A stretch of DNA of 64,000 nt, taken from Persicaria tinctoria (Eukaryota; Streptophyta; Magnoliopsida; Caryophyllales; Polygonaceae). The notes beneath the pieces are model-generated. The model had not been told where the DNA came from and did not search any database. It was given only the letters and a program-made list of their open reading frames with translations. A program made the position numbers and the translations under genes. Positions within the stretch are counted from its first letter, which is position 1. The number at the start of each line of letters is the position of its first letter. The DNA lies in contig JBANSL010000004.1 in NCBI GenBank assembly GCA_037127255.1, forward strand, positions 55,282,318-55,346,317, read 5' to 3'. Shown here piece after piece: positions 1-60,974 of this stretch.

Positions 1-1
1 A

Positions 2-6440: not shown

Positions 6441-6442
6441 AA

Positions 6443-6461: not shown

Positions 6462-6523
6462 AGCAATCAATCGCGCCTTAGGTAGTCAGTTCTCACTGTT
6501 TCTTTGAGTTAGTTTGAAGGTGT

Positions 6524-7240
6524 ATGCGTCGTTCTGGTCAAACACCTGAGTTTGACGCCTTAGACGAACCGGAACGCCTATTCCACATCCGAGCTAAACT
6601 ACAAAGAGCCATGTCAGCTGCGGAGACACAGGAACAGCTGATCGCTAGGCTTACCAAGGAACTAGCCGCAAGGGATGCCGCTATCAACGCTAAAGATGCT
6701 GTTATCACCGCTGAGAGAGCAGCAAGGGAACAAGCACAGACTGAGCTTGCCCAGTATCCAACCACGACAGAGGACTACATGCACCCAACTCTCGTCGTGC
6801 CTGAATCGGCGATTCTAATCCCTGAAAACTCTTTTGAAATTCGCACTCAATTTCTTATAGAGCTTAAAAATAATGCCTTTTACGGCAGATTTAATGAGTG
6901 CCCTCTTGAACATATTACTAATTTTCATGATATGTGTCGTACTCTTGCAGAAGATACAACCTTGGAATATGTCAAGATGAAATCTTTTCGCTGGTCTGTT
7001 GCTGGGCCTGCACTGAAATGGCTGGAAGGGCTCAAGGCAAGATCACTCACAACCTGGGCCCAAGTAGAGCAAGAGTTTCTGAACAAATTCTTCCCACCTG
7101 CCAAAACAGCACATCTCCGCCAGAAAATCACCGCCTTTAAACAGCAGAAAGGGGAACCGCTGGCAAGGGCATGAGAGCGCTACAAGGAACTGCCCATGCG
7201 GATCGAAAAGGCACACCACTCCTGAGTGCCCACACACAGA
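6524..7240 (+). pseudogene. gag of element A, N-terminal two thirds, nonsense and frame damage
   Basis: An open frame of 216 codons starts MRRSGQTPEFD. Residues about 30-80 are a heptad-like helix rich in Ala/Glu/Lys (coiled coil). The rest is a plant gypsy capsid (Retrotrans_gag) region: FYGRFNECPLEHITNF near 6877-6925, KWLEGL near 7018, TTWAQVEQEFLNKFFP near 7048-7095. A TGA at 7172-7174 stands where the family has Trp (ARAWERYKEL), and the frame is lost before 7300. Gag forms the virus-like particle. Here the capsid part could only be made as a truncated protein. The start ATG is the first one after the PBS and suits the family. Confidence 0.82.
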
Positions 7241-7301
7241 GCAAGTAAGGCTGGCAGAACACCATGAGGATGCAGCTTACGCAGGGGGACCCAATCGCTA
7301 C

Positions 7302-9386: not shown

Positions 9387-9524
9387 TTTCCTAACAAATT
9401 CAATAAGAAGAAGATGGGACCATTCACGGTGAACAAGATCCATTAAGGAGGAATTCAGCTGAAAGATAAAAATGGAGTCTTGTTCGAAGCCCAAGCTACA
9501 TGGGCTCTGAAGATGCCACCTTGA
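9387..9524 (+). pseudogene. Remnant of the post-integrase C-terminal tail
   Basis: After the stop at 9384-9386 the same frame still reads KFNKKKMGPFTVNKIH, a stop, then GGIQLKDKNG. This resembles the GPFxVxxI...GxIxLxDxxG tail at the end of Athila/Tat pol, and shows where pol used to end. Confidence 0.6.
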
Positions 9525-9883
9525 GCTTAACGGAGAAAGTCGGCCTAGCGACTATAAAATCTAGAGCTTGTAAATAGACGTTATTTTTTTATTTTGGGAC
9601 TTTTTGGACATTGTTGTTTGCTTTAGGTTTTGGACATTGTTCTTAGGATTATACTATTGTGGGTATTTCTTTTCTAACGAATCTTGCAGGTATGAAAAAA
9701 AAAAACAAAAAAAGCTACAGTCTTGTCGACATAGAGGTAAGTCCTCGACATCGACAAACCACATCGAGCAAGCCTGTGGTCGAGAAGATCACCCTGGAGG
9801 CAACAGGAAGAACTCGATGTCGAGGAGATGTTGTCGACATCGACAAGTCCTCGAGATCGACTAAGTTGTCGAGATCGACAAGC
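9525..9883 (+). other. Non-coding region of A before hAT-1, with more TCGA palindromes
   Basis: Contains no domain I recognise. From 9720 to 9883 it is packed with TCGACATCGACAA-type palindromes, now outside any pol frame. hAT-1 interrupts this stretch. Confidence 0.6.
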
Positions 9884-9891
9884 ACTGCAGC
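9884..9891 (+). repeat. 8-bp TSD of hAT-1 (actgcagc), left copy; right copy at 14152-14159
   Basis: ACTGCAGC occurs immediately on both sides of the element. Eight bases is the duplication length of the hAT superfamily. Confidence 0.96.
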
Positions 9892-9904
9892 TAGGCGTGG
9901 CCAC

Positions 9905-10065
9905 GGGTTACGGGTCAACCCGTGACCCGCCGGGTCGTACAGGTCAACGACCCGCCGGGTCGTTGACCCGCCGGGTCCGGGTCGCCGGGTGGCCGGGTGG
10001 GGGCGGGTTAGGGTTAGGGTTAGGGTCGGGAGGTAGGTGACCCGTGACCCGCCGGGTCGGCCTAT
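9905..10065 (+). promoter_or_regulatory. Left subterminal repeats of hAT-1 (GACCCGCCGGGTC cluster)
   Basis: At least four full copies of the near-palindrome GACCCGCCGGGTC plus CCGGGT/GGGTCA variants fill the 160 bp inside the left end. hAT transposases typically bind such subterminal motifs. A short GTTAGGGTTAGGGTTAGGG run at about 10006-10025 is part of this G-rich block. Confidence 0.7.
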
Positions 10066-10119
10066 TTTTTAAAAAAAATCCGTTGCTGTGGGGCCCACCT
10101 GTTGGAGCTGTTTTTTTTT

Positions 10120-10252
10120 TAAAAATGTAGCCGTTGTAACGGCTAGTAGGCACACTCGGGGCTATAAATACCCGACTCCTCCTATCACAAATCACATCCA
10201 ATCCATCAATCACCTCTCAATTTGATTTTTAATAAGCTCGTAAGTTGTAATC
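10120..10252 (+). promoter_or_regulatory. Promoter and leader of the small BED gene
   Basis: CCGTTGTAACGGCTA (about 10130) is followed by TATAAATA at 10163-10170 and an 82-bp leader rich in C/A/T before the ATG at 10253. The transposase gene has the same order: CCGTTG-NNN-AACGGCTA, then TATAAATA, then a C/T-rich leader. Confidence 0.65.
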
Positions 10253-10474
10253 ATGTCCGGTGACAACCTCAAAGAGGCGTTGTTTCGAGATCATTACGAG
10301 AAGGTGGATGTGCAAGCCGATCGATCATTCGTAGCCGTTTGTCGTCATTGTGATAAAAGGTACAAGATGAAAAATAGCCTTGGATATGGTAATTTGAAGA
10401 ATCACATCAACAACAAGCACCCCGAGAAGATCAAGAACGATGGCGCTTCGGGCTCGAGTGGTGGTAAAAACTAA
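10253..10474 (+). CDS. Stand-alone BED zinc-finger protein, 73 aa
   Basis: The whole protein is essentially one BED-type finger: Cys30-X2-Cys33-X17-His51-X4-His56, then PEK, then a short Ser/Gly tail. The hAT-1 transposase finger has the same spacing (CX2CX17HX4H) and shares GYGN...HI...KHPEK, so the two are paralogous. The start ATG gives MSG, as in the transposase. It has its own TATA box and leader, and no catalytic or dimerization region. BED fingers bind DNA in transposases and related regulators. By inference this protein could bind the element's ends or the internal motif block and compete with, or regulate, the transposase. It could also be a decayed duplicate, but its frame is intact with no lesion. 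Confidence 0.8.
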   Translation: MSGDNLKEALFRDHYEKVDVQADRSFVAVCRHCDKRYKMKNSLGYGNLKNHINNKHPEKIKNDGASGSSGGKN

Positions 10475-10935
10475 AAACTAGTCTATTATTCCTATGTCAT
10501 AAGTCTTAATAATAAGTAGTGAGTATTGTAGTAATGTAGTAAGTTTATGTTTTACGTTTTTATGTTATTATGTTATGTTATGACTTATGACGTTATGTGA
10601 ATCGATGAATCCGTGAATGTGAGTCGTGATTTGGAAACGTGTATGTGTATTCGTCTTTCGATTTACAATAAACTTGTGTTTGGATTATTCAAAGAATATT
10701 GTTTTATAAGATAATATTTTTACTAATTACCTAACAACATATGACTAATTACCTCAACATTATATAATATATATTACATTTCAAACGTTCACAAGTTAAA
10801 AATGTAAATAAAATATATTGGAAACTTAACATATAAATTTATTTCAAAGTGTTGTTGTTAACTATTAGCCAAACACCACCCAATTCCAAATTAAAAAAAA
10901 AAATTTGAATCGGGTGTGGCAACGGTCAGATTTCA
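10475..10935 (+). other. AT-rich spacer between the two hAT-1 genes
   Basis: About 460 bp of AT-rich sequence follows the BED stop, with AATAAACT at about 10667 as a possible polyadenylation signal for the small gene. No other feature seen. Confidence 0.5.
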
Positions 10936-11018
10936 ACGGTCGACCCGCCGGGTCGACCGTTGGACCCGCCGGGTCGAACGTTTGACCCAGCGGGTCGACC
11001 GTTGCCCAACGGCTACAA
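10936..11018 (+). promoter_or_regulatory. Internal block of hAT-1 end motifs in front of the transposase promoter
   Basis: Three copies of the subterminal motif (two exact GACCCGCCGGGTC-type, one GACCCAGCGGGTC) alternate with CCGTTG/AACGG. They end about 40 bp before the TATAAATA of the transposase gene at 11055-11062. The motif is otherwise confined to the two ends. The position suggests that the BED protein or the transposase binds here; this is inference. Confidence 0.7.
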
Positions 11019-11054
11019 TGGAGGGAAAGGGCTCGGTTTGGCTCACTTTGGCTC

Positions 11055-11062
11055 TATAAATA
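11055..11062 (+). promoter_or_regulatory. Transposase TATA box (TATAAATA)
   Basis: TATAAATA lies 137 bp before the transposase ATG and is followed by a CT-rich leader with TCTCTAATCGCTC repeats. Confidence 0.65.
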
Positions 11063-11199
11063 GACCCTTTCCCTCCCAATTCCAACTCACACCTTACTCA
11101 TCTTCTCTACTCTCATCTTAATCTCTCTAATCGCTCTATAATCGCTCTCTAATCGCTCGATCTTGTCTCTCGTCATCTCCTAAGTCTCTTCAATTCAAA

Positions 11200-13560
11200 A
11201 TGTCGGGTTTGATCAACCGAGTTACGGCCCGAGTTACTAGGGGTCGGAAGAGTGTTAGTGGAGCCCCATCTTCATCCACCCCGAGTGTCGGAGGAGGGGC
11301 GGCTCCAAGCCTTCGTCGAAGCGCATCGGTCTCGGCGGCGAGCGGATCCCGACGTCGTCGAGATGATGCTCTACTCGCCGACCACGTCGACGAGATCGGG
11401 GAGGAGGAGGAGGAGGAGGCCGAGGCTGCCGAGCTCCAGGCCGATGGCACCCCCCAAGCCGGCACTGCGACGATTCCGACCCAAGAGTCCGGGTTCCCCG
11501 GCGACGGTAGCCAAGGAACTCCGGTCGATGGCGACCCTATTACGACGGCGGAAGTTCGAGCCGCTACTTTCAAGTATTGGTTCACGAAGGGTCCTAAGGA
11601 GCCGGCTTGGGAGGCCGGGAGTGTTGCCGCCAAGTGCAACTTCTGCTCCACGGTCTACAAGCACCCGAAGGGGGGCGGATATGGGAACTACGGTCGCCAT
11701 ATCCGTTCGAAGCATCCCGAGAAGCTCGGGCTCGCCAAAGGGCAAACTCAACTAACCGGGTACGCATCTTCTTCCTCTCAACCCCCTGGTTTATGGTCTT
11801 ATGATTATCGTAGTTGTCATGATCAATATGCGGAAATGATAGCTGCCGAGGGTTTAGCTTATAGTTTTTCACAACGTTTATGTTTCAATGATTTTATTAC
11901 GCAAAATGTTCAACCTGCATGGCAAGGTATTAGTCGAAACACGGTTAAGAGGAAAATCAATAGACGGTATAACACCCGTAAAAATGAATTAATCGAATAT
12001 TTTCAAAAAAACCATGATTTACAAGTTTCGATTTGTAGTGACATTTGGACCGACCATTGGCAACATCACTCATACATGGGTGTTACTTGCCATTGGGTTG
12101 ATCAACGTTTTCAATTGCACAAACGTGTTTTAGCTTTTCGAGTTTTTGACGAAGCACACACGGGACGAAACATAGCAAGTGTCCTTTTAACGGTTTTACA
12201 AGAATATAGATTAACTAAAAGAGTTTTTAGTATTGGTTTTGACAACGCTTCTGCCAACACCGCTTTTATCCCCGATTTAATCCAAAACTGTCAGCCCGCG
12301 ATAGGCGGGAAGTTTTTCCACATCCGTTGCACCCCTCACATTTTAAACTTATGTGTTCAAGATGGTTTAAGATATTTACAATTTGTTGTTGAACCAATTC
12401 GATTTGTTTTGCGGGCAGTTTGGCGAAGCAAACAGCTTCGCCAGCAATGGAGCGCTTATTGTCGTGCTCACCAAACACGCCCAAAGACGTTCCCCAAGGA
12501 CGTTTGCACTCGGTGGAACTCCACTTACACAATGATTTACGATTCAATCGCTTACAAGGAACTTCTTTCCGGTTTTGCAACACTACACATCCCGGACTCA
12601 TACATATTTGCCGATGTGTGGACTCAGGCCCGGGACGTTGTAGAGGTTTTCAAAGTTTTTTACGACGCAACTCGGACGTTTTCCCACGTTTACATGCCTA
12701 CATCAAACGTTTTTTGTTTTATTGCAATGAACGTAGCATTAGCCCTTCAAGACGGGATTAACACGCCTTCCATTTCTGAAGCGACTAGGGAGATGCGGGA
12801 GAAATGGATAGCGTATTACAAATTTATACCCGACATTTTCCTCGTAGCGTGTTGTTTCGACCCTAGATATAAATTAAACGGAGTTCAACTGTTTTTAGAA
12901 AACTATTATCCGACTTTAGGAATTGTGGATGATCCTGATTGCAATGTTACAATTATTGTTGCTAGAGTTAGAGGATTGTTAGAACAATTATATACTGAAT
13001 ATTCGACGGGCGATAGAGCGCCCTCCGGTCGTCCTCCCGTGCCTTCTAGTTCAAGCGGGTCACGAACCAGCATCACCGCTAGAACTACGGCACTTGCCCG
13101 AGATATCTTTGGGTCAAAGAGGTCGAGATCTTCGTCGAGCCCCCACTCGGAGCTCGACGAATATTTGTCCACTAACTTTGATTTTCTCAGCGATGAAGAG
13201 GAAGATTTCGATGTCCTTGAGTGGTGGAGCCGTCCCGAAAGACAAAGATTCCCGACGTTGCAGGTAATCGCCCGACAAATACTTGGGGCACCTTGCTCCA
13301 CCGTAGCCGTCGAGCAGCTTTTTAGTCGCGGAGGTCAGATTCTTTCGGAGAAGAGATCAAGGTTGCTTCCCGAGAACCTCGAAGCCCAAGTTTGCCTTGC
13401 AGATTGGAAGAAGGCGGAGATGCGACTGCAGAAGAACAACTTGGGGACTGATTCCGAGGATGATGACGGAATAGAGACAGAGTCCGTTGGGAGCTCCATT
13501 GACGGCGCGGTCACAGATGGCTCAGGAGGTGGAGGAGGATCCGACGATCAAGAAGAATAG
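11200..13560 (+). CDS. hAT transposase, 786 aa, intact
   Basis: A single uninterrupted frame. Residues 1-120 are low complexity, with a basic stretch near 50 and an acidic run near 70. Residues 124-175 are a BED zinc finger (CX2CX17HX4H). The RNase H-like core holds DIWTD near residue 281 (first catalytic Asp region) and FDNASAN near 347 (second Asp region). The C-terminal dimerization region (about 675-760) reads WWSRPERQRFPTL, then STVAVEQLFSRGG with the expected Glu, then SEKRSRLLPENLEAQVCL. The tail is acidic and Gly-rich. Length and order fit autonomous plant hAT transposases (Ac/Tam3-like group). It would cut at the TIRs and reinsert the element with 8-bp duplications. No intron is needed. 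The start is supported by the upstream TATA box and leader. Confidence 0.94.
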   Translation: MSGLINRVTARVTRGRKSVSGAPSSSTPSVGGGAAPSLRRSASVSAASGSRRRRDDALLADHVDEIGEEEEEEAEAAELQADGTPQAGTATIPTQESGFPGDGSQGTPVDGDPITTAEVRAATFKYWFTKGPKEPAWEAGSVAAKCNFCSTVYKHPKGGGYGNYGRHIRSKHPEKLGLAKGQTQLTGYASSSSQPPGLWSYDYRSCHDQYAEMIAAEGLAYSFSQRLCFNDFITQNVQPAWQGISRNTVKRKINRRYNTRKNELIEYFQKNHDLQVSICSDIWTDHWQHHSYMGVTCHWVDQRFQLHKRVLAFRVFDEAHTGRNIASVLLTVLQEYRLTKRVFSIGFDNASANTAFIPDLIQNCQPAIGGKFFHIRCTPHILNLCVQDGLRYLQFVVEPIRFVLRAVWRSKQLRQQWSAYCRAHQTRPKTFPKDVCTRWNSTYTMIYDSIAYKELLSGFATLHIPDSYIFADVWTQARDVVEVFKVFYDATRTFSHVYMPTSNVFCFIAMNVALALQDGINTPSISEATREMREKWIAYYKFIPDIFLVACCFDPRYKLNGVQLFLENYYPTLGIVDDPDCNVTIIVARVRGLLEQLYTEYSTGDRAPSGRPPVPSSSSGSRTSITARTTALARDIFGSKRSRSSSSPHSELDEYLSTNFDFLSDEEEDFDVLEWWSRPERQRFPTLQVIARQILGAPCSTVAVEQLFSRGGQILSEKRSRLLPENLEAQVCLADWKKAEMRLQKNNLGTDSEDDDGIETESVGSSIDGAVTDGSGGGGGSDDQEE

Positions 13561-13960
13561 AAGAGGAGGTAACCGGGCCGGGGTTCAGACATACAGGTAA
13601 AAGAACTACGTGGGCTTTGATTCCTCACCCCCGGGAGGATACGTAGGCAGTCGGGAAACCGATTCAAGCCCTTCTTCTTCCTTCCCCCCTAACACTCCCT
13701 AATACAAAAATTGTACAACTTCTTTGTAATTTGTTAAACTTAATGAGTTATAAGTCTTAGACTTTTTAGTTTTGAAAATTCGAAGATGTTACATATTGTA
13801 AAACTAAAGCGTCAAGTTATTATTTATGAACACGAAAGGATATTTGTCAAACACTGATAGGCGTTCAATTCCCGTTCTCTTTCTCGACAAATCAGATCCG
13901 ACAAATCAAATTCCAAAGTCCGAAACAAACGCAAACCCGTCCAACCCGGGCTCCAACTCG
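13561..13960 (+). other. hAT-1 3' untranslated region
   Basis: Follows the transposase stop. It contains the conserved stem-loop motif on the minus strand (13603-13648) and AT-rich sequence without coding potential before the right subterminal repeats. Confidence 0.6.
13603..13648 (-). other. Conserved stem-loop motif, copy in hAT-1
   Basis: On the minus strand: GCCTACGTA, then TCCTC and GAGGA as a perfect 5-bp stem around a C/G-rich loop, then ATCAAAG, then ACGTAGTTC. CTACGT and ACGTAG can pair as an outer stem. Six further copies lie in the solo LTR at 50199-51119, with different but also self-complementary inner stems. Confidence 0.8.
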
Positions 13961-14135
13961 CCGGGTTGACCCGGCGGGTACCCGGCGGGTCTGACCCGGC
14001 GGGTCAACCCGTCGACCCGATGACCCGCCGGGTGACCCGAACCCGCCAACCCGTGGAAATCCCGGGTTAGGGTTCGGGTCGCCCTCCCCCGGGTCTTGAC
14101 CCGGCGGGTCGAACCCGTCGACCCGCCGGGTCTGA
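13945..14135 (+). promoter_or_regulatory. Right subterminal repeats of hAT-1
   Basis: Dense GACCCGGCGGGTC, GACCCGCCGGGT and CCCGTCGACCCG motifs lie inside the right TIR and mirror the left end. Confidence 0.7.
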
Positions 14136-14159
14136 CCCGTGGCCACGCCTAACTGCAGC

Positions 14160-15466
14160 ACCTTCTTCGCTTGATTTTCCGACGATCCGCACACCTGTCT
14201 TGTGAGTTTCTTTCTCTTCCCTTGTCTTTTATACAGTGAGGACACTGTAATGTTTAAGTATGGGGTGGGGAAAGGGCTTACTTTATGCATATTTGATTTT
14301 ATTTGACATTATGTGTGCATTTTTAAGGTTTATTTCTTGAAATTTCTTATGCATGGCTATTTTGGAATTCATTATTGATTTATGTGCTTATATGCATGTT
14401 TTCCAAAAATTTGAGAAAAATGACCCCCATTGAAATTTTGAAATAATGTCATAGAAGCTTATATTAGACTCGACGATGCAAAATTGGATTCATTAGAGAT
14501 ATAGCATGAAATTGCCTAGTAAAGGGAAGTCACAATGAAGTGCATTATTTCTTGAAAACCATGAAAGGAGGTAAAATTTGAAATTGCTTTTGACATGTTG
14601 CATGATAAGATGATGGAGGACTTTATATTTCCATATAATGCTCATTGTTTAAATCCTAGCCTTACCTATGCTTATGCATCACAAAAGCCATAAATATGCC
14701 TTATTTCAAATATTGCTCCACATGATCTAAATATTTGTCATTCTTTACCTTATCCGGGGATTATGTTGAGAATGATGTTACATTATGGAGATGTTATATG
14801 GTTGTTGTGATTATTAACATTATTGGAGTTTGGAAAGGAAATTGTTTGAAATATATGGAAAATTTAATGAGTGAAAGAAAATTCAATCACCTCAGGAGAT
14901 AAAGGTAGATTGACCCTGCTCTCTGAGATAATAGTTTGGAGAGATGGGACACATTGTGAGGAGTCCAAAGCACTAAGTATCCGGGGCCATTCATGACACC
15001 CATGTTTGCGACTCGCGAGAAGGCAGTGCTAAGGTCATAGAGGTAAAAGCATGATTATTAATAAAAGCATTATGAAAGGTGATGAATCAAATGGAAGAAA
15101 GAATGTGGTATGAAATTCAGTTTGGAAAGTACTCCATTTCCCCGGATCTAAAGCACCACATTGCCAAAAATTGCCCACCTTTTAGCCTTTTACCAATCTA
15201 CTCCTTTATGAGCTTAAATTAAAGTCTTCTTGATTATCAATGCTTTGTCACGAATGAATGTTTTGCATAACCCTCCTTTTGTGAGTAGATGTTGCTTTTA
15301 CATATTTGCACGTGCATGAATCTATGACACTAGTACCTTTTCGAGGATGGTAATTGATTGCAGGGACATATAAGAATGAATCTAAGATGTTGAGAGTTTG
15401 AATTCTTCCCCTGAATGACAATTAAAAGTATTGCTTGAGGACAAGCAAGCTTAAGTATGGGGTGTT
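14160..15466 (+). other. 3' non-coding region of element A with two polypurine tracts
   Basis: No coding region. It begins near GAGGACACTG...TTTAAGTATGGGGTGGGG (14236-14270), a tract resembling a PPT, and ends with GAGGACAAGC...TTAAGTATGGGGTGTT (15437-15466), directly before the 3' LTR. The two share the GAGGACA-spacer-TTAAGTATGGGG layout and are about 1.2 kb apart. Confidence 0.7.
15453..15466 (+). promoter_or_regulatory. 3' polypurine tract of A (AAGTATGGGGTGTT)
   Basis: Adjacent to the TG start of the 3' LTR at 15467. Confidence 0.75.
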
Positions 15467-17371
15467 TGTTGTGAGCCTAATTTGCCATGTTTTACACTTA
15501 CTTTCATATCAATTTCTGCATACATTGCATACATTTGGGTTAGAATAATACAGAATATGTGTAGTTTACACTTATTTGCAATATATGGAGGTCTACACAA
15601 GTTTTTGTTATATTTCACAGAAATCGGACGCATTTTGGAGCTTAATGGAAAGTCATGGAGAAGCCAAGAATGGTGCAGCTGGAGAGAAGGCCAATTTCCG
15701 GCTTTCATCATTCTGAATCAGGCTGTGATGTCTTCATGAGAGTTGTAGCCCTCGGAAAGAGCTTTCCAACGCATGGTCATATGCGTCAATCCGACAACCG
15801 AGGCAGCGGGAAAGTGCGTTTTACGAACAGAGCTGGAAGCAGAGGAAAGTTATCGATGTCGAGAAGACTTGTCGACATCGAGAAGTATCAACTCGACATG
15901 TGCACTGGAAGACGAGGTCGAGTTGATGAACTCAAGACGAGGACATCGACAACTTTTGTCGATATCAAGAAGACATGTCGAGAAGATTTGTCGAGCAGCT
16001 CCGGAATCCGAGATCGAGGAGAAGTCCGAGCGGGATTGGATACTTGCAAGCTAAGATTCGACGAATTCTATCCGAATCTATCAAGATCTATCAAGACCAA
16101 AGAAGATGTCCACACATTAGATATAATCCTAGTCTATCTATTTAATTACACTATGTTATTTATTTATCATTAAGTTTTAGATATAGTTTTAGATAAAGAT
16201 AGATATCTTCTATCCTTGATTAACAAGGATTAGAAGCCTATAAATAAGGCCCTAGGGGCTGACTTTTCATTCATTCCAAGTTACACACAATTAGTTAGTT
16301 CCATTCAGAGATACAGTTTAGGGGTTCTAAGGTTTTTAGGGTTTTGGCGATTTGCGAGAGTTGATTGCCGGAATTGTAAAAGCTTTGAATTTAGTTTAAT
16401 GCAATTTATTTCCTTTAAATCAAAGATGTCTGTTATTGCGATGAAGAGCGAGTAGTCCACCCACTTCTGGGGCTGGGGTGAGCCCGACGGTGGCCATGTG
16501 AGGCGATGCAATAAAGGTCAGATCTTTTGTGCGATTCATCTTCTATCCCTATGAGCATGATTCTTTTGCGAGAGTTGAAGGTGATCCTTGTTTGTATTAT
16601 TGAATCGAAAGTGATCTCAATACAACTTGGATTAATTATGTGAAAAAGGGTTAGTAACAATTAGGGTTTATGCGAAAGCCTCTATGTTCCTATTTGTTAA
16701 TAACGAAAGTTATTTAGATGGAAAGCATGATCTTTTATGCCTTTATGTGTTACTTTGCATGGTTATCGTTGCGGTGTCGAAACCCTAGCCTTGGAAGTCT
16801 TTAGTTTATTGATTTTATTTCGTTAAAAAATCGTTTCCGTGTTCGAAAGCATTTGCCTTTAGTTTTCCGTTACTTGTCGATTTCGAAAAGAGCTTGTCGA
16901 GGTCGAGCACTGTTGTCGACGTCGAGAAGTTTTCATCGAGATCGAGTTTTCTGTGCCTTGGTCGATCTGTTGCTGTGTCGAGTACTTGTCGATATCGACA
17001 AGTCTGTGTCGACAAGATTCGGTCGAGTTCTTCTGTCGAGTACTTTGCTGCTGTCTTTGTCGAGTTGCTTTACTTGCTTTGCTTTATTTCTTGCTTTCTG
17101 TCTTTTATTTGCTTTTATTTTAGTTGCCCTTGCCGGGATTATTTGTTTCTATTTTATTTCTGCTTCTGCTTGCGTTTCTGTGCTTTTCTGCTGTGTCTGT
17201 GAGAATCTGATAGCTATCTGAGAACTGCTGACGTGCTTCCTCGTGGATTCGATCCTGACTTTTCTCTTACTACAACGGGAGGAAGTCTTGTATTTATTTG
17301 CTGAGACAGTGAAGTCAGTCTGAACTTTATTCTATATTTATTTCCATACTCGATTACCTCCTGCAACAACA
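15467..17371 (+). repeat. 3' LTR of element A
   Basis: 1905 bp, the same length as the 5' LTR and nearly identical. Differences I noticed are near 15505, 16440, 16606, 16915 and 17310. It is followed by the TSD gtatt at 17372. Confidence 0.94.
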
Positions 17372-18471: not shown

Positions 18472-21400
18472 TGTAAAGGCTCGGATTTTTAAATCCTAAT
18501 TTAATAGTGGAATTTAACGAAAAACTCGAAAACACGGATTTTAAAATTCATGGAACGGAATTCCGGCATAATTTTTTTTTTATATAAAAAAGGAGACTAA
18601 CTTGATGGGGCGACATACTTTCTCGGATTTTTGAAATTCTAACTGATCGAGAGAGCGGGCTTCGGTATTTGTTCCGGTTATTTTACAATTTATTGGGACC
18701 ACTCACCACTTTGTCTTGTCACCTTGTCTTGTCCCATTCCTTCCGTTTGGCTTGCAGAGTAGCAGCCCCAAACTCCTCATGCTCCAGCTTACCCATTTCC
18801 TCTTCTAGGCTAAACACCCTCCTCTACCACTCTCCTACCTCGCCCTCATGCCTCACCATTTTAGAAAAGAGCCAAAGCAACCTGCAACCCTTCTTGCACC
18901 GCAACCCACGCCAAATCTGTACTTGACCACATTCAAAATCCAATTGCAGGATACCATCCCTCTTTTATTCATTGAATCAAAACAATATCTCTCCCTCCTC
19001 TCTGCTGAGTTAACAAGGCCATCTCCCTCCCCTATGTGCCGCCAGTAACCACAACTCCCCCTCCTCTTTTCCGCTGCCAAATACCATTCACCACCTCCTT
19101 TCCGCCTCCCTTGTTTCGCCACCTCTGAGCACAACCACCACAGACCCTCCTCCTCTCCTCTTTGTTGCAACTGAAATCCCCAAGACATACCTCACGCAGT
19201 CATGCTCCCCTGTTTTCCGGAAACCGCCGAGTCGAGTCACCACCAACACTTCCGCCTCCTCCGGTACACCAAGGGAATCCACCACCACCTACGACGCCAC
19301 CAGCAACGCCCGGGACGCCTGGAATAGCTCCGACGAACTCCGGCGAGTAGACGCCCCTCGGTGAGCTTCGACCTTATCTCCTTCTCTCTCGTGTGTTCCT
19401 TTCGATTTATTTGGTGTTCATAGTGGTCGGGTAAGAGCGTCGGTGAGCTTGAGAGTGGCTAAGGGTGACGGCGAGGCCGGAGAAATCGAGAGGCGGGATC
19501 GGGAGCGAGAGCGAGGTCAGCGAGCGTTAGTGCGTGCGGGGCCGAGCGCGAGTGAGGGAGAGAGAGAGTCCGACCGGGAGAGCGAGTGCCGGAGAGCTGA
19601 GGACGCGCCACCGCTAGCCAGGTCGGAGGGAGAGGAAGCCGTCGATGGGTTCTCTCTTTCGAACAGAGGCGCAGGCCACAGGGCAAGGGAGGAAGAAGAC
19701 CTGTGGGTCCCGCCTCCTCCACATCAGCAGCCATGTCAACGTGGGCCCATCTCTTTCATGTTACTTCTGGGTTCGGATTCAACATCAGCAAGAAGGAGTG
19801 GGTTTGGGCCTGGTATTGTTGGGCCGGACTTTTGGGTTTTAAATGAAAATGTGTTGTGAGCAAACTTACTTGTTAAACCTCAAAATTGTAAAGAGTTGGG
19901 TTCGGTTTGGAGTTTACAAAATAAAAGGGGTCGATTTATAATTTCTATAAAATAAGGGGCTGACTTTATTAAATAAAAATGGTTGGGGTTTTAAAGGATT
20001 TGGAAATGTTTAATGGAAGAGGATAATTAAAATATTAAATATTAATACTTGAGTGTTAAGCATAAAATATTATTAGTAAGATTTAAGGATATAATATCAT
20101 GGTAATTTAAGACAAATAAAATATTACGAGACTTTATCGGAACTTAAATCGGAAAAGGGATTTGACGAGCATTTTCCAAGGCGGAATTTCTAACTAGTGA
20201 ACTCATTTTTCGAAACGGTTTTCGGGACTAACTCGGGAAATTATGTGATCAATGACTAACTAGCATGTTGATATAATTGATTGACTAATGGCATGATTGA
20301 TTGACTAATGGCGTGATAAAGTGTTAGACTTATGTATAGTTCACTTATGCCTTCGATATATGATGAATATGATGAACTTGTTATATATGATATGCGGATT
20401 GGTATCGCGGATATACTGTTGCTAATACATGAATGTGGCTGATGGAATGATGAGAACGATATGGCCTTGTTGAATGTGGAAATATGATGAATGGTTGAAC
20501 TTGACGAAATGATGATTGCAATATGGTTGGTATTTTTGTTGAATGATATGCTTGGGTGATTAGACGTAGACTTATATATATGTGCTCTGATGTGTATCTA
20601 GGTGATCCTTTGTGATTATGAATGATGTATTCCAGATCTTCTCTTATGTTGTTCTGCATAGCTAGGTGAGTTCCTATATGAGCTCACTCAGATTTGAAAA
20701 GAGATCTCCCTGCTTGTAGCCATGTGCATACTATGTGCTAGCATTCATAATAAAGCATGACATGTAGTATCCTGCTAGGATTGCACTCATGATTGAACAT
20801 TCGTTTACTCATTGCTTTTGTAAACAGAACGGCCGCTATCTGTGAAGTAACTAGAGTCATTGCTAGGGTCATAGGACGACCTAGTCCCATCGGGTCCCGT
20901 CCTGAGTCAATCGAGTCATGAACTTCCTTATATTATGAGATGCCTGCGTGCTTTATTGTGGAGCGGGTTGGGCATGCGTGCCGCCCGATTATGAATGAAT
21001 GCATTCACGAGCTGGCCAGTCTTCGCCCTATCGGAAGGGGGTGGAGGTAGGAGAGGGATATACCACTTGGTATTCGGTGCTAAGGCCTTCTTATATTATG
21101 CACTTGATCTTAGGACCATGCTAGTGTGTTAATATTCCGTCTTGCATCTAGAAGCATCTTTATTAGGACTACCGTGTGTATATGTCTGCTTGTTTGGGAT
21201 TATATTGCGTAGGGTTTCGATCTGACACCACCCCGCATACATTTTTTTTAGGTTTGTTTTGCAGCATGATTATTCCTTGTTTCCGTGACGTGGGAACTCT
21301 CTTGGGCGATCTCAAAGAAATGGTTTAACTCCACTAATATTGTATATTAAATTTCGATAATTACGCTTATAGATTTGGTTTTGACTCGGCTCTGTCGTGT

Positions 21401-21649
21401 CACCCTCTTGTATTACACCTTGATTCTACTATTTGCATGACCGTTGGTTTTCCGCGCTTAGACTTAGGACATGTACAGGGGACTTCCCCGGAGATTCCAA
21501 TGATCCCTTCGAATTTTGGGTATGAAATCCCACTTTAAAATGTTAGGATAGAATTTCAAACCTTCAACCTGTACTCGGGGCGCAAGATCCTAACGAGGGG
21601 TTTCATCCCTCGAAACGTAACCCGGGAATCATAATCCCAGGCCGTTACA
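18472..21649 (+). repeat. 5' LTR of the LARD-like element
   Basis: 3178 bp. A C-rich, then G-rich stretch (18760-19740) gives several overlapping open frames that carry no recognisable domain. The rest is AT-rich. Confidence 0.92.
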
Positions 21650-26720: not shown

Positions 26721-29700
26721 TGTAAATGCTCGGATTTTTAAATCCTAATTTAATAGTGGAATTTAACGAAAAACTCGCAAACACGAATTTTAAAATTCAT
26801 GGAACGGAATTCCGGCATAAATATTTTTTTTTTTAAAAAAAAGGAGACTAACTTGATGGGGCGACATACTTTCTCGGATTTTTGAAATTTTAACTGATCG
26901 AGAGAGCGGGCTTCGGTATTTGTTCCGGTTATTTTACAATTTATTGGGACCACTCACCACTTTGTCTTGTCACCTTGTCTTGTCCCATTCCTTCCGTTTG
27001 GCTTGCAGAGTAGCAGCCCCAAACTCCTCATGCTCCAGCTTGCCCATTTCCTCTTCTAGGCTAAACACCCTCCTCTACCACTCTCCTACCTCGCCCTCAT
27101 GCCTCACCATTTTAGAAAAGAGCCAAAGCAACCTGCAACCCTTCTTGCACCGCAACCCACGCCAAATCTGTCCTTGACCACATTCAAAATCCAATTGCAG
27201 GATACCATCCCTCTTTTATTCATTGAATCAAAACAATATCTCTCCCTCCTCTCTGCTGAGTTAGCAAGGCCATCTCCCTCCCCTATGTGCCGCCAGCAAC
27301 CACAACTCCCCCTCCTCTTTTCCGCTGCCAAACACCATTCACCACCTCCTTTCCGCCTCCCCTGTTTCGCCACCTCTGAGCACAACCACCACAGACCCTC
27401 CTCCTCTTCTCTCTGTTGCAACTGAAATCCCCAAGACATACCTCACGCAGTCATGCTCCCCTGTTTTCCGGAAACCGCCGAGTCGAGTCACCACCAACAC
27501 CTCCGCCTCCTCCGGTACACCAAGGGAATCCACCACCACCTACGACGCCACCAGCAACGCCCGGGACGCCTGGAATAGCTCCGACGAACTCCGGCGAGTC
27601 GACGCCCCTCGGTGAGCTTCGACCTTCTCTCCTTCTCTCTCGTGTGTTCCTTTCGATTTATTTGGTGTTCATAGTGGTCGGGTAAGAGCGTCGGTGAGCT
27701 TGAGAGTGGCTAAGGGTGACGGCGAGGCCGGAGAAATCGAGAGGCGGGATCGGGAGCGAGAGCGAGGTCAGCGAGCGTTAGTGCGTGCGGGGCCGAGCGC
27801 GGGTGAGGGAGAGAGAGAGTCCGACCGGGAGAGCGAGCGTCGGAGAGCTGAGGACGCGCCACCGCTAGCCAGGTCGGAGGGAGAGGAAGCCGTCGGCGGG
27901 TTCTCTCTTTCGAACAGAGGCGCAGGCCACAGGGCAAGGGAGGAAGAAGACCCGTGGGTCCCGCCTCCTCCACACCAGCAGCCATGTCAACGTGGGCCCA
28001 TCTCTTCATGTTACTTCTGGGTTCGGATTCAACATCAGCAAGAAGGGGTGGGTTTGGGCCTGGTATTGCTGGGCCGGACTTTTGGGTTTTAAATGAAAAT
28101 GTGTTGTGAGCAAACTTACTTGTTAAACCTCAAAATTGTGAAGAGTTGGGTTCGGTTTTGAGTTTACAAAATAAAAGGGGTCGGTTTATAATTTCTATAA
28201 AATAAGGGGCTGACTTTATTAAATAAAAATGGTTGGGGTTTTAAAGGATTTGGAAATGTTTAATGGAAGAGGATAATTAAAATATTAAATATTAATACTT
28301 GAGTGTTAAGCAAAAAATATTATTAGTAAGATTTAAGGATATAATATCATGGTAATTTAAGACAAATAAAATATTACGAGACTTTATCGGAACTTAAATC
28401 GGAAAAGGGATTTGACGAGCATTTTCCAAGGCGGAATTTGTAACTAGTGAACTCATTTTTCGAAACGGTTTTCGGGACTAACTCGGGAAATTATGTGATC
28501 AATGACTAACTAGCATGTTGATATAATTGATTGACTAATGGCATGATTGATTGACTAATGGCGTATTAAAGTGTTAGACTTATGTATAGTTCACTTATGC
28601 CTTCGATATATGATGAACTTGTTATATATGATATGCGGATTGGTATCGCGGATATACTATTGCTAATACATGAATGTGGCTGATGGAATGATGAGAACGA
28701 TATGGCCTTGTTGAATGTGGAAATATAATGAATGGTTGAACTTGACGAAATGATGATTGCAATATGGTTGCTATTTTTGTTGAATGATATGCTTGAGTGC
28801 TTGGGTGATTAGATGTAGACTTATATATATGTGCTCTGATGTGTATCTAGGTGATCCTTTGTGATTATGAATGATGTATTCCAGATCTTCTCTTATGTTG
28901 TTCTGCATAGCCAGGTGAGTTCCTATATGAGCTCACTCAGATTCGAAAAGAGATCTCCCTGCTTGTAGCCATGTGCATACTAGGTGCTTGCATTCATAAT
29001 AAAGCATGACATGTAGTATCCTGCTAGGATTGCACTCATGATTGAGCATTCGTTTACTCATTGCTTTTGTAAACAGAACGACCGTTATCTGTGAAGTAAC
29101 TAGAGTCATTGCTAGGGTCATAGGACGACCTAGTCCCATCGGGTCCCGTCCTGAGTCAATCGAGTCATGAACTTCCTTATATTATGAGATGCCTGCGTGC
29201 TTTATTGTGGAGCGGGTTGGGCATGCGTGCCGCCCGATTATGAATGAATGCATTCACGAGCTGGCCAGTCTTCGCCCTATCGGAAGGGGGTGGAGGTAGG
29301 AGAGGGATATACCACTTGGTATTCGGTGCTAAGGCCTTCTTATATTATGCACTTGATCTTAGGACCATGCTAGTGTGTTAATATTCCGTCTTGCATCTAG
29401 AAGCATCTTTATTAGGACTACCGTGTGTATATGTCTGCTTGTTTGGGATTATATTGCGTAGGGTTTCGATCTGACACCACCCCGCATACATTTTTTTTAG
29501 GTTTGTTTTGCAGCATGATTATTCCTTGTTTCCGTGACGTGGGAACTCTCTTGGGCGATCTCAAAGAAATGGTTTAACTCCACTAATATTGTATATTAAA
29601 TTTCGATAATTACGCTTATAGATTTGGTTTTGACTCGGCTCTGTCGTGTCACCCTCTTGTATTACACCTTGATTCTACTATTTGCATGACCGTTGGTTTT

Positions 29701-29898
29701 CCACGCTTAGACTTAGGACATGTACAGGGGACTTCCCCGGGGATTCCAATGATCCCTTCGAATTTTGGGTATGAAATCCCACTTTAAAATGTTAGGATAG
29801 AATTTCAAACCTTCAACCTGTACTCGGGGCGCAAGATCCTAACGAGGGGTTTCATCCCTCGAAACGTAACCCGGGAATCATAATCCCAGGCCGTTACA
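26721..29898 (+). repeat. 3' LTR of the LARD-like element
   Basis: 3178 bp with TGTAAA...TTACA ends. Relative to the 5' copy it lacks 9 bp near 28612 and gains about 8 bp near 28800; overall length is equal. Confidence 0.92.
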
Positions 29899-35626: not shown

Positions 35627-36144
35627 TTGTGCAAATATAACTTTAAGTTGTGCAAATATAACACTATGTTTTGCAAATGTAACATTATATTGTGCATATC
35701 TAATAATATAATGTTACGTTGTGCACATATAATATTATCTTGTGCGAATATAACATTATATTGTGCAAATATAACTTTAAGTTGTGCAAATATAACACTA
35801 TGTTTTGCAAATATAGCATTATGTTGTGCATATCTAATAATATAATGTTACGTTGTGCAAATATAATATTATGTTGTGCGAATATAACATTATATTGTGC
35901 AAAATATAACTTTAAGTTGTGCAAATATAACACTATGTTTTAGGGGTGGGCGCGGGACGGGACGGGACGGGACGGAGGTCGTCCCGCGTAATTTTTGCGG
36001 GACGGGACCGTGAAAAATATACATGTACTGCGGTAATCCATATATACTCCGTACTGTATAACATAATACATGTACTACAGAATATACTTTAATACATATA
36101 TACTCCGTAATGTATAACATAATATATTATATATGTAGTGTTAC

Positions 36145-36232
<88 letters not shown>

Positions 36233-36395
36233 GCGGGACGGGACGAGATTTGCGGGATTGGGACGGGTCGTCCCGCGTCCCGTCCCGCATAATTTTTGCG
36301 GGACGGGACCGGGACGGGATTCACTATTTTTTTTCGAAATCCCACCGGGACCGTGATTTGCGGGATTTGTGCCCACCCCTACTATGTTTTGCAAA
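35627..36395. repeat. 134-bp tandem repeat, about three copies, interrupted by a hAT MITE
   Basis: Units start at 35627, 35761 and 35895 (134-bp steps) with TTGTGCAAATATAACTTTAA. Each unit is itself built from TTGTGCAAATATAAC-like sub-repeats of about 20-25 bp. The third copy is split by the MITE at 35941-36381. Further degenerate units continue to about 36500 and reappear at 37195-37250. Confidence 0.88.
35941..36381 (+). mobile_element. hAT MITE, 441 bp (TIR TAGGGGTGGGC)
   Basis: TSD ctatgttt lies on both sides (35933-35940, 36382-36389). Ends TAGGGGTGGGCGCGG and GTGCCCACCCCTA. The subterminal regions repeat GGGACGGGAC. The centre is a microsatellite that switches from (AAT)n to (ATT)n. 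Same family as 59908-60974. Confidence 0.95.
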
Positions 36396-36540
36396 TGTAA
36401 TATTATGTTGTGCATATCTAATAATACAATTGTGCAAAAGTAAGATAGGATTGTGCAAAAGTAGTATACAATTGTGCATAACTAAGATTATAATGTGCAT
36501 GATTAACAATTTGCGATTGTTGCGCTCTTGTCTATTATGT

Positions 36541-36610
36541 AACCTATGTGGGATTTGAACCCACATCTTTGTGCAAACGCACATTGCTCTACCAATTGAG
36601 CTAATAGGCT
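36541..36610 (-). pseudogene. tRNA-like sequence with a damaged anticodon arm
   Basis: On the minus strand it has a fully pairable acceptor stem (AGCCTAT/ATAGGTT), a D arm (GCTCAATTGGTAGAGC) and a perfect T arm (GTGGG TTCAAAT CCCAC). The anticodon arm is TGTGC-GTTT-GCACA, with a 4-base loop in place of 7, so no anticodon can be read. It is 70 nt, shorter than normal. Both internal Pol III boxes are intact. It is probably a tRNA pseudogene or SINE head. Confidence 0.6.
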
Positions 36611-49587: not shown

Positions 49588-50198
49588 TGATAACTCCCTC
49601 CCTTGATGAAAATCGGAATAAATGTTTCAAAGGCCTTGATAGGATGTTTGTGTCAGAGGTCTTGGAACATTAACAGTTGATGAAATCCAAAACCTGTTTT
49701 ATAAGTCCGAATATTATTTAATCTTATTATATACTTCCTATATATTATATATATATGCTTGACTAATCTTTTAGGATGTTTTTCGAATTATTTCCTTCCT
49801 TTCGACAAGTGCTGAGAAGGTTCAAATCGGAAAGATTATGGCTTCATTTGTTTCCAAGTTTAGAAGATCTTGAAGATAGCCATGATCAGGAATAGCCGTT
49901 GGAGAAGATTCTCGGCGCCGATTTGTCTCAATAAATAGAGAAGGAAGATGAAGACAGGATACACAAGTATTACACGAGCTTTCATTCATTCAAGCGAGAT
50001 ATGTCTTCCAACTGTACTCTCTGTGTTAGGCAAAAATTATTAAAGGAACAATCTCGCATAACACATTTCAATTTGAATTATTTTTATAAAGTTCGACCCT
50101 TATCTGTACTTCTTCACAATTTTAAATTATGCAGATACTTTAAGAGGACAAGGATTTGGGTTTTTGGTGGTTCGGACTGGACCCGTTGATGAGGGTTG

Positions 50199-50239
50199 CC
50201 TACGTACCTTCATGGGAAGGATCAAGTCCAACGTAGTTC
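50199..50239 (+). other. Stem-loop motif copy 1
   Basis: CCTACGTA, inner stem CCTTC/GAAGG (50207-50211 with 50216-50220, loop ATGG), ATCAAG, then ACGTAGTTC. The outer stem CTACGT/ACGTAG is perfect. Confidence 0.8.
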
Positions 50240-50455
50240 GAAGATACAGGGTTTTATGTATTTGGGGTTGGTTTGGGTAGACTTTGTGTCTAGTTTGGCA
50301 TATGGTAAGGTGTTTGGATTTGATTTGGTTTACACTTGATGTCTGATTTGAGTTTGGGTATATGCTTGGGTATATGTGTTTGGGTTTCAACTCGATAGAG
50401 TATCGGGTTTGATTTGTTTTCTTTGAGGTTTGTGATTGAACCCGGATATGGGTTT

Positions 50456-50496
50456 CCTACGTATCCGTGATGACGGAATCAAATCACTCGTAGTTC
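50456..50496 (+). other. Stem-loop motif copy 2
   Basis: CCTACGTA, inner stem TCCGT/ACGGA (50464-50468 with 50473-50477, loop GATG), ATCAAAT, then CGTAGTTC. Outer stem CTACG/CGTAG. Confidence 0.8.
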
Positions 50497-50563
50497 CAAG
50501 GGTATGAATTCACTTTGGAACTTGTGGCTGGACTCGACAATTGTATGACTTGAGGTCGAGTTT

Positions 50564-50603
50564 CCTACGTAGCTCGTTTGAGAGCATCAAGCCTTCGTAG
50601 TTC
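50564..50603 (+). other. Stem-loop motif copy 3
   Basis: CCTACGTA, inner stem GCTC/GAGC (50572-50575 with 50582-50585), ATCAAG, CGTAGTTC. Confidence 0.78.
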
Positions 50604-50825
50604 GGTACGTCTTGGGTTTGAACATGATTTTGTGATTGGAGCCGATGAGAAATAACGTCATTTGTAGTTCTCACGAGCAACTTCATTTGATCTTGGACTT
50701 GTGACTGGATCCGACGAGAAATGTCGCCCTTTGTATCAAGTCGTTGTAGTTCCCACGAACAACATCATTTGATTTTTTGGGGGGTATGTGATTGAATCCG
50801 GTATACATGTGTTTTTACCGGATTT

Positions 50826-50866
50826 CCTACGTAGCTCGTAAAGAGCATCAAATCTTGACGTAGTTC
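50826..50866 (+). other. Stem-loop motif copy 4
   Basis: CCTACGTA, inner stem GCTC/GAGC (50834-50837 with 50843-50846, loop GTAAA), ATCAAAT, ACGTAGTTC. Confidence 0.78.
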
Positions 50867-50972
50867 TACACGAACTGATTTTGCTTGATTGACTTAACTT
50901 CATTTGGGACCGAAGCAAGTCTTTTTGAAATTTGGGATTGGACTCGATGGGCTTTGGCTTATCATCGAGTTT

Positions 50973-51013
50973 CCTACATATCCGATGACTCGGGATCAAA
51001 TCTTATGTAGTTC
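50973..51013 (+). other. Stem-loop motif copy 5, with paired outer-stem change
   Basis: CCTACATA and ATGTAGTTC: both halves of the outer stem changed, keeping CTACAT/ATGTAG complementary. Inner stem CCGA/TCGG (50982-50985 with 50990-50993). ATCAAAT conserved. Confidence 0.78.
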
Positions 51014-51079
51014 TTTTTGAACAACTTGAATTTGGTTTTGGCGATTGAACTCGATGAGCATTGACTTTGTATCGAGTGT

Positions 51080-51119
51080 CCTACGTACCCTTCTAAAGGG
51101 ATCAAATCACCCGTAGTTC
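51080..51119 (+). other. Stem-loop motif copy 6
   Basis: CCTACGTA, inner stem CCCTT/AAGGG (51088-51092 with 51096-51100, loop CTA), ATCAAAT, CGTAGTTC. Confidence 0.8.
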
Positions 51120-54100
51120 CTCCAACACGAATTTGGATATCATATACGCTATTGGATTTGATGAGCGATCGATAACGCCATTTTTACAGTCTCGTCCTTA
51201 GGCACCGCAGCTTGGTTGTGGGTCTCCTTTCATGGATGAGTTGCGGGGATCTCCCATAGCTCATGAATGTATTGCTATTGGATTTATATATCCCTCGTCC
51301 CTGCATGTTTTGATAAGACCAACATATTTGTGGCCGATCTCCCCATCTTGCTACATAAAAGGCCTATCACCTCTTGCATAGAATTTTAATGTGACCGGTT
51401 GGCTACTTAGAGTCACGTTCATCACAATAGGCCTCCATGACCTCTTGCGTGGAATCTTTTATCCATTTCGAATCCTCTCGATCACGACGTGAGTGACACC
51501 GAGGTTGCTGACTACCACCATTTCGATCCGCCAGCACTTAAGAGGCTGCCTAGCACGCACCGACGCAGCAGCTCACCATGAACGGGCCTGAACCGTTGCC
51601 GAAGAACTTGCAGAAACTGTGTGAACATGCCAACTTTGGAGCCTCGCCCTCGTTGTTACAAAGCTCCGTTTTTGTTGATTTTTGTTCTTATAGATTCCTT
51701 GTGATGTCCTCTATCTATCACTAGATTCTGTTGGCTCATATCTCCTATGAGATGAACGCAATGGAGCCTTAAAATGGGCTGCTGGGCAGTTCTTTTTTGC
51801 AGAAACTGCATGAATGCGTCAACTTTCGAGCCCTACCGCTGCTGCTACCGAACTCTGTTTCCGTTGAGTTTTATTTAGACGTGTTTCTTGCAACGTCCTC
51901 TATTAATGGCGTCTCTTGGTATGCATAGATTCATCCTGGACTGCTCAGAATAACGTCTGCACTTTGGCTACTGGGCCGTTGTTTGCCTTGTTTGCGACCT
52001 CATGCCTGTTTCTGTCGCTATCTTTACATGGCGTTCGAGGCTGCATCGACCTATCTTTGGAGATATTTGTTGGCCTTCATCTGTAGTTGGCATGGCATAA
52101 GGTTGCAAATTTGAGCTGGGGGCGGCATAGATTGTCTTCGGATGCTCGAGGAGTGCACAAAAAGTGTCATCTTGTGCAGGAATCATCCAAACGTGGCCGA
52201 GAGGGCAACTTCTAGCATCAGCTGCAGTCGCCACAGAGCTCCGATTTTGTCTCTGTTTCTTTCGGCATACTCCATGCATAGCCCTCTTTTTGCTCCAAAT
52301 TGCTATCAACTTGGGTACACTTTGATTTATCCGTAACATGGCCCGTAACGTTGCTGTTTGAGCAGTTTTTTCTCCTCCGCAGATATATATGATTTTGAGG
52401 CCTTTTTTGTTGCTCATTTTTGTTGGGCACTCGGGGCTTTTTAGACTGATCTTTAGGAGAAGTTGTTGGACTTCGGTGGTGGATGGCATGACATAGGCTT
52501 GAGAATTTGAGTTGCAAACATGTCGGGACCATCGGTGACCGATCGAGAGTCGCGGAAAGATGCCTTACTGGCCATGTATTATGTCCCTCCACGAGCTGCA
52601 TTTGAAGGTCGTCCCGGCATCATATGGGTGACCGTTGGAGCCGCGAGAGAGTGGAGAATTCTTGTGCAACTGTTGGCAATAACTAAGGGAGCTCAATTGT
52701 GAGTCGTCGGCTTCCGAGAGCAAGCTTTTGGCGATGTTGATAGGCTCCTCGTGGACTTGCTTTGTTGCAATTTGTTGATTTACAAGGCGGCGATTGACAG
52801 GGTTCCTTGGTTGTAGAAAAGGTATGCATTAGGTAAGTCCCTCGTAGCCCTCTCTTTATTTTTTATGCTCTCTTTTCTCTTTTTTTTTTTTTTTTTGTTT
52901 TGGCTTACGAGAGATCTACCGTTGCGATGCCTTGTGGGTAGTCGAGCAATGAGACGGAGGAAATGGAGGCCGTAGGAAGGCGGGCGCGACATGTGCATCA
53001 CCAAGCTTGATGTCAAGCTTGCCGTACAAACTCCGGGTTGTACCTGCATCGGTGTTGACATGGAAAGGAGAAAGAAATTATATCTTTACTCCGCCGATCG
53101 ATCAATTGCGGCGGCAAGCCATCGATCCAGCAATGACGTACTGGTGAAGATGCGCAGAGCTATGGCCTCCAGCTACAAGATGATGGGTGTTGGAGCCTTG
53201 ACCTCCGCCGACCAAACTTGTTCTCCCTTTGTCACATTGGAGGCTCCCCTTAGGTTGTATATTCCACCTTCTTTTGTTTTGGTGAAGATGTGCTGAACTA
53301 TGGACTCCCCCACCTAGTTTGTTTTGGGGAGAAGAACTATATGGCCTCCCCCCTTTGTTCTGAACTCCATCATGCATATATATAACATGGGCACATATGC
53401 AGTAACGACATTTACATTTATTGCCATTATGAGCCATGCGTTACATTTGCTTGTAACCGGTAGCATTTGTGGCCATCATCATCATCATCATGCAGGTATA
53501 TGTAACCGATTGCATTACTGTCCCCTTCAATTTTCATTCAGCTGTTTCACATAGGATTATCTACTTTGAGGTCCACGTGCCTCTCTACTTTTTAAATAAT
53601 TATACTATTATAAAGTTATTCACTTTTAGGTCCGTTTCATATTAACACGTAACCTTTAACTGTTCTAACTTTGTAACAGTACAATTATAACTCGTAATAT
53701 TAACCTTGACAAAAATCATGAGTATATTTTTCATGAAATTTTGACCGTCAACACTCTGTTAGCGCTCAAGAGTTTGTTGTTTATTTCAAATACTTTGAGA
53801 GTCACTTTGAGCTTATAGGATATATTCATTTATAGTGTTACTCGAGAGTTTGTAACTCGGGAAGTTGCACTAGGCTATTGATTTGTGAGAGTAAGAGGAT
53901 TGTACTAGATAGCTGAGAGAGGTGGGGCTCTTCTAGATTGGTCTAGGACTCCAAGGGAATGTGAGTTGACTAGATTGCAATTGTATAGGAGAGAGGCTTC
54001 TCGTTGAGCTATTATGATCCTAAGCTAAGCGAATCAATAAAGCCTTTTGAATCCTAAGGTTGTGGAAGAACCCTAGGCGGGGACGTAGGCCAAGTTCGTG

Positions 54101-59907: not shown

Positions 59908-60974
<1,067 letters not shown>

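Follow-up and report, generated by a model that had tools for sequence, protein, structure and literature searches.

A candidate RNA pseudoknot with compensatory changes shared by a hAT transposon and a solo LTR of Persicaria tinctoria

Why would a DNA transposon and an LTR retrotransposon carry the same short structured sequence? The question is raised by a 64,000-nt stretch of the Persicaria tinctoria genome (contig JBANSL010000004.1; hereafter the window, with positions counted from its first letter). A first-pass annotation had described seven copies of a stem-loop in the window, each with an outer stem and an inner stem whose letters change while its pairing is kept. All seven copies are present at the noted places, the inner stem is self-complementary in 7/7, and every stem listed is found in the sequence. 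The outer halves of the copy at 50973 are CCTACATA and TGTAGTTC (CTACAT/ATGTAG), both altered as described. The place of the hAT copy, read there on the minus strand, was right; its end, given as 13648, is corrected to 13647. The assignment of six copies to a solo LTR and one to a hAT transposon was confirmed by TSDs, terminal repeats and Pfam matches:

9892..14151, plus strand: hAT transposon with the 8-bp TSD ACTGCAGC and a perfect terminal inverted repeat (14/14), the best candidate pair in the scan
11131..13560, plus strand: hAT transposase ORF, 809 aa from stop to stop, with Pfam matches to Dimer_Tnp_hAT (9.3e-23) and hAT-like_RNase-H
50024..53753, probably minus strand: solo LTR of 3730 bp, TGTT...AACA, with TSD CTCTG at 50019-50023 and 53754-53758

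The transposase frame is intact and 86% identical to another predicted protein. The hAT transposon sits in the interior of a 12.8-kb LTR element with a gag frame (4531-17371), whose 1910-bp repeats (4531-6440 and 15462-17371) are 99.7% identical; a 767-aa frame of this element (7083-9386) had no Pfam match at E 0.001. The solo LTR is inserted into a Copia-type element, in its left LTR; this element extends beyond the end of the window. Elsewhere, the window holds a 3.2-kb direct repeat of 97.9% identity (18472-21649 and 26721-29898), two arrays with a period of about 9-12 bp that are similar despite their distance (36094-36246 and 60194-60780), and a tRNA gene on the minus strand (36540-36610; Rfam 54.2 bits).

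The earlier hairpin is real and is not the whole motif: two further paired regions, two degenerate units and the likely sense strand had been overlooked. On the strand that reads GAACUACG, each of nine copies (the seven in the window and two from other collections, L006 and L009) is able to form a pseudoknot of 65-80 nt in the order GAA-P1-P2-UGAU-P3-loop-P3'-U(A)-P1'-G-P4-C-P2'. The fold is an H-type pseudoknot with one hairpin inside each of its two loops. P1 (CUACG/CGUAG) is nearly invariant and encloses the 5' strand of P2 and the hairpin P3, which is the inner stem described before. The P2 strand before UUGAU is complementary to letters beyond P4, downstream of the P1 3' strand, and P4 is a second variable hairpin. 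The units in the window are as follows:

13603..13671, plus strand: hAT copy in the predicted 3' UTR; P2 GGGCTT/AAGCCC, P3 TCCTC/GAGGA, P4 TCGG/CCGA
50174..50239, minus strand: LTR1 copy; P2 GGACT/AGTCC, P3 CCTTC/GAAGG, P4 ACCC/GGGT
50432..50496, minus strand: LTR2 copy; P2 GTGATT/AATCAC, P3 TCCGT/ACGGA, P4 AACCC/GGGTT
50526..50603, minus strand: LTR3 copy; P2 GGCT/AGCC, P3 GCTC/GAGC, P4 ACTCGAC/GTCGAGT
50604..50670, minus strand: degenerate unit; P3 and the P1 3' strand lost
50671..50752, minus strand: degenerate unit; P3 and the P1 3' strand lost, TTGAT and a GACT/AGTC match retained (by eye)
50790..50866, minus strand: LTR4 copy; P2 GATT/AATC, P3 GCTC/GAGC, P4 AATCCGGTA/TACCGGATT
50936..51013, minus strand: LTR5 copy; P1 CTACAT/ATGTAG, P2 GATT/AATC, P3 CCGA/TCGG, P4 ACTCGATG/CATCGAGT
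51040..51119, minus strand: LTR6 copy; P2 GGTGATT/AATCGCC (one G-U), P3 CCCTT/AAGGG, P4 ACTCGAT/ATCGAGT

The array in the solo LTR comprises six full units and two broken ones, and some units are spaced 106-108 nt apart. The broken units (50604-50752) retain GAACTAC and the stretch after P4 and offer a natural record of unit decay.

Under manually chosen bounds, P1, P2 and P3 are fully paired in 9/9 copies, and P4 comprises 4-9 bp in eight; in L006 at most 2 bp of P4 can be placed. Comparison of the nine copies, with L006 left aside for P4, revealed that P2, P3 and P4 vary by compensation. P2, for example, reads GGGCUU/AAGCCC in the hAT copy, GGCCUU/AAGGCC in L009 and GGACUU/AAGUCC in L006, and in the LTR units GGACU/AGUCC, GUGAUU/AAUCAC, GGCU/AGCC, GAUU/AAUC (twice) and GGUGAUU/AAUCGCC. 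The constant letters fall within P1 and at the joints: GAA ahead of P1, then UUGAU, a U preceding and a G following P1', and a C directly 5' of the P2 3' strand in 9/9 copies. Their constancy is inflated, having been partly required by the eye of the earlier annotation and by our search patterns. An extra stem, GTTC/GAAC, lies just 5' of P1 in several LTR units and in the hAT copy; it is invariant and missing in L006, and is not claimed here. RNAfold energies were ordinary relative to shuffles in four of five copies (z -0.60, -0.48, 0.14 and -0.54; -3.02 in the fifth), because P1 and P2 are mutually exclusive in a nested fold. P1 and P2 may also alternate instead of coexisting.

The motif is specific within the window. 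The exact pattern CCTACGTA-N-ATCAA-N-CGTAGTTC matched six times (five in the LTR and once at 13603-13647 on the minus strand), with a mean of 0.00 matches in 100 shuffles of the window. A descriptor in which only TTGAT was fixed and P1, P3 and P2 could take any sequence, composed after the copies were known, returned precisely the seven known places, with P2 in 7/7; in 60 shuffles it matched 0.58 times on average (maximum 3), or 0.17 times with P2. A covariance model built from the nine copies scored these same copies at 48-57 bits and everything else in 15 sources at no more than 26 bits, and at E up to 10 it found no additional copy in the 64-kb window.

To what extent do these changes exceed what shared descent would produce? 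Compensation was compared with a tree-aware null (FastTree tree, per-column rates, 1000 simulations). For P3, the paired fraction was 0.933 against 0.538 in the simulations (0/1000) and double changes numbered 81 against 8.5 (0/1000), in agreement with the earlier claim that pairing of the inner stem is under selection. For P2, the values were 0.889 against 0.624 (reached in 1/1000) and 65 against 8.4 (0/1000), with the place of P2 set by hand; for P4, with bounds picked after the fact and L006 excluded, they were 1.0 against 0.392 (0/1000) and 90 against 9.7 (0/1000). P1 was paired at 1.0 against 0.940 (165/1000), with 8 double changes against 0.5 (22/1000). The outer stem CTACGT/ACGTAG does pair, as had been proposed, but its covariation evidence is almost nil, since it is nearly invariant and changed in one copy. 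Across the nine copies, six of which are tandem relatives, compensatory changes in the predicted P2, P3 and P4 are above the tree-aware null; P1 is too invariant to be informative.

Swapping strands between copies at fixed lengths reached the observed pairing in 2/50000 trials for P2, 0/50000 for P3 and 7/50000 for P4 (on eight copies). With a free downstream position, the observed P2 sum was reached in 109/100000 trials, or 4/100000 if the preceding C was required. The six tandem copies alone gave 858/50000 for P2 and 121/50000 for P3; one LTR copy with the hAT, L009 and L006 copies gave 2109/50000 for P2, which is the four-copy floor, and 4203/50000 for P3. Dinucleotide shuffles of the downstream stretch, the weakest of the tests, gave single P values of 0.004 to 0.84 and a combined value of 0.007, with copies that are non-independent and P2 and P4 bounds initially set by eye. 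In an alignment of P1 and P3, 94.9% of cells were paired against 80.4% when shuffled (0/500), the covariation score was 0.472 against 0.165 (0/500), and cells with both sides changed numbered 18 against 5.2 (0/500). Pairs with both sides changed were modestly enriched (5 against 3.0; 10/500), and further pair types were no better than shuffled (10 against 9.6; 264/500). Six slid versions of this alignment were all lower in pairing and covariation. Judged from sequence comparison, support for the pseudoknot is good, though the copies are few.

The two outside copies came from a scan of prokaryote contigs, which returned eight loci, two of which (L006 and L009) were taken as true copies. Both have the same P1, P2 and P3 as the window copies; CCTACGTA, ATCAA and CGTAGTTC were fixed in them by the search pattern. 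Inner-stem complementarity, predicted for further copies, is present in both, a small-scale result that is partly circular since they were chosen partly for their paired inner stems. P2 played no part in the choice, and both fit the window-derived P2 in 6/6 positions. The other six loci scored 16-26 bits.

Both loci are apparently plant contamination in bacterial assemblies. L006, a contig titled Solirubrobacter, has a single ORF of at least 80 aa in 4160 bases. It carries a PBS-like TGGCGACTCCACTGGGGA site, which we take to be a plant Ty3/Gypsy primer site, and the motif lies 640 nt upstream in the same sense; presumably, the element may be an Ogre. L009 belongs to a Bacilli MAG of roe deer jejunum; its genes look bacterial as far as about 7640-7680, and the final stretch beyond them has a eukaryotic look (by eye). 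There the motif comes after a short, acidic frame that ends in a stop and resembles the tails of this hAT family in style; L009 is possibly a hAT, on the likeness of 15 residues. Plant-transposon-like DNA within bacterial assemblies covers 1-4160 of the Solirubrobacter scaffold and about 7680-8000 of the Bacilli MAG.

Searches of IMG/VR with these patterns found no true motif copy. The first motif pattern gave four loci, in all of which the 3' word starts a tRNA-like sequence (by eye), and the second gave two near-identical loci that are phage coding sequence (by eye). The PBS-like pattern gave 0 loci, two looser patterns gave 36 and 41 loci that partly overlap earlier ones, and 0 relatives of the hAT protein were found among 381 pattern stretches. 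A plasmid search with the hAT 3' end gave no match. When 82 rows were scored, inner stems measured 7-9 bp in the four that belong to L006 and L009. The remaining 78 rows (78 loci with 43 distinct cores, all of them word matches in other contigs and one from the bacterial collection) had at most three inner pairs in 77 cases and four in one, which speaks against the inner stem having arisen by chance.

Three contexts give the motif a direction. In the hAT transposon it starts 42 nt past the transposase stop codon, on the sense strand of the gene and so in the predicted 3' UTR; in L009 it follows a stop, and in L006 it precedes the PBS-like site. All three read GAACUACG, which suggests that transcription of the window LTR probably uses the minus strand, placing the array near the 3' end of the LTR; the orientation and the transcribed part are those predicted from these contexts. 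The strand on which the motif was originally described is probably the antisense one.

What could such a structure do in both elements? We tentatively propose, from the analysis as a whole, that transposon transcripts carry the motif as a conserved cis-acting RNA pseudoknot that may protect or export transposon RNA. The folded core would offer a host factor, for RNA binding or export, a place to dock; this factor would shield the RNA from decay and aid its exit from the nucleus. The need common to both elements would be that their RNA must escape decay and leave the nucleus. Such a docking site would explain the presence of the motif in both a hAT transposase 3' UTR and an LTR, as well as the multi-unit array in one LTR, where more sites would mean more binding. 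Spread between element classes may have occurred by copying among transposons in a shared host, as proposed for s2m in viruses.

An element of this sort would share its logic with the ENE and MTE systems of published work. ENEs protect Evade and hAT RNAs through poly(A) triple helices (PMC12501189; PMC12846552), and deletion of the Evade ENE is reported to reduce RNA stability and mobility (PMC12501189). Like the ENE/dENE of Evade and a rice hAT, which are structured, RNA-stabilising and located in the 3' UTRs of hAT and LTR elements (PMC12501189; PMC12846552), the present hAT copy lies in a predicted 3' UTR on the sense strand. In contrast, ENEs are described as having repeated U-rich internal loops, flanked by stems, that clamp poly(A) (PMC12501189), whereas the longest U run of the motif is 2-3 in 9/9 cores and the motif has a pseudoknot; without U-rich loops it is not an ENE. 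The mouse MusD MTE, an export element, contains a pseudoknot and is, with the IAP RTE, a cis-acting RNA of LTR elements (PMC12786077), likened here to the motif by description. MTE and RTE are mammalian and NXF1-dependent, whereas plants use TREX and associated factors (PMC12786077). According to the same review, plant LTR retrotransposon RNA export has had no direct study so far, and Ogre elements do splice (PMC12786077); given the possible Ogre identity of L006, reasoning from unspliced RNA loses force. The s2m element of coronaviruses, astroviruses, caliciviruses and picornaviruses is likewise a short RNA structure in unrelated genomes with proposed horizontal movement (PMC10062133); it differs in being a viral stem-loop of largely conserved sequence, whereas the motif is a covarying pseudoknot in transposons.

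Other explanations account for parts of these data. HDV-like ribozymes have the helix order P1-P2-P3-P1'-P4-P2', which is that of the motif, with P1-P3 in 9/9 copies, P4 of at least 4 bp in 8/9 and the C before P2' (J4/2) in 9/9, so the motif could be a new self-cleaving ribozyme, possibly with its cleavage site close to the 5' side of P1. A double pseudoknot built of five helices is described for these ribozymes, some of which can do without P4 (PMC3774820). P4 is scarcely present in L006, and plant retrozymes bear hammerheads in their LTRs (PMC11722881). However, the high-identity parts of R2 ribozymes are described as P1.1, P3 and L3 (PMC3774820), whereas loop 3 of the motif is different in every copy rather than conserved, and P1.1 is inconsistent: a two-pair G-C P1.1 is possible in one of nine copies (L006), and one with any standard pairs in six, not in LTR1, LTR6 or hAT. 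P1 has 5-6 bp of nearly fixed sequence, no Rfam ribozyme matched, and six cuts within one LTR would seem costly; we regard self-cleavage as decidedly unlikely. An exonuclease-blocking or ring-like RNA, stalling 5'-3' decay and leaving stable transposon fragments with the array as repeated stops, would suit a pseudoknot with fixed joints and repeated units, and tandem viral exonuclease-resistant RNAs exist. In the known plant-virus types the pseudoknot strand is in the apical loop, unlike here, where it lies between P1 and UUGAU, and we regard this reading as unlikely.

The place of the L006 copy, upstream of a PBS-like site as expected in an LTR, would fit a retrotransposon packaging, dimerisation or translation signal recruited separately in the hAT transposon. 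A hAT element has neither packaging nor reverse transcription, yet the same structure is in its 3' UTR (in the window and possibly in L009), so this is quite unlikely. ACGT-core words are of the kind bound by bZIP factors; P1 holds one such word, TACGTA, and the 106-108-nt spacing of some units would suit palindromic sites and foldback DNA amplified by slippage, with accidental compensation. Against a DNA-level element of this kind, compensation is found in P3 and also in P2, a helix of no use to a simple cruciform, and the motif keeps one strand relative to the gene or the PBS-like site in all three readable contexts; this explanation is highly improbable.

The earlier remark that no named family was known for the motif holds against Rfam 15, in which no family reached its gathering score at the motif and the whole window gave the tRNA alone; when the threshold was relaxed to E 10, the region of the copies gave four weak matches, none of them a ribozyme (no hammerhead). 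No such motif was found in the literature searched, which covered titles and abstract openings, with bioRxiv and most subscription journals outside its coverage. The words of the motif may also occur in repeats of other plants. To our knowledge, RNA structures described in plant transposons are few apart from ENEs and hammerheads.

Beyond the tentative role in RNA protection or export, the motif could represent a kind of pseudoknotted RNA not described before, whether catalytic or factor-binding. It may be a portable survival module that plant elements of both classes, DNA transposons and LTR retrotransposons, have exchanged with each other and that was multiplied in some LTRs, a wider reading that we hold about as tentatively. 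Catalysis by the motif would make it a new class of ribozyme. A compensated pseudoknot present in LTRs as well as in the mRNA of a DNA transposon would indicate a host step that the two share, and the motif would offer a small, mutable handle for finding it.
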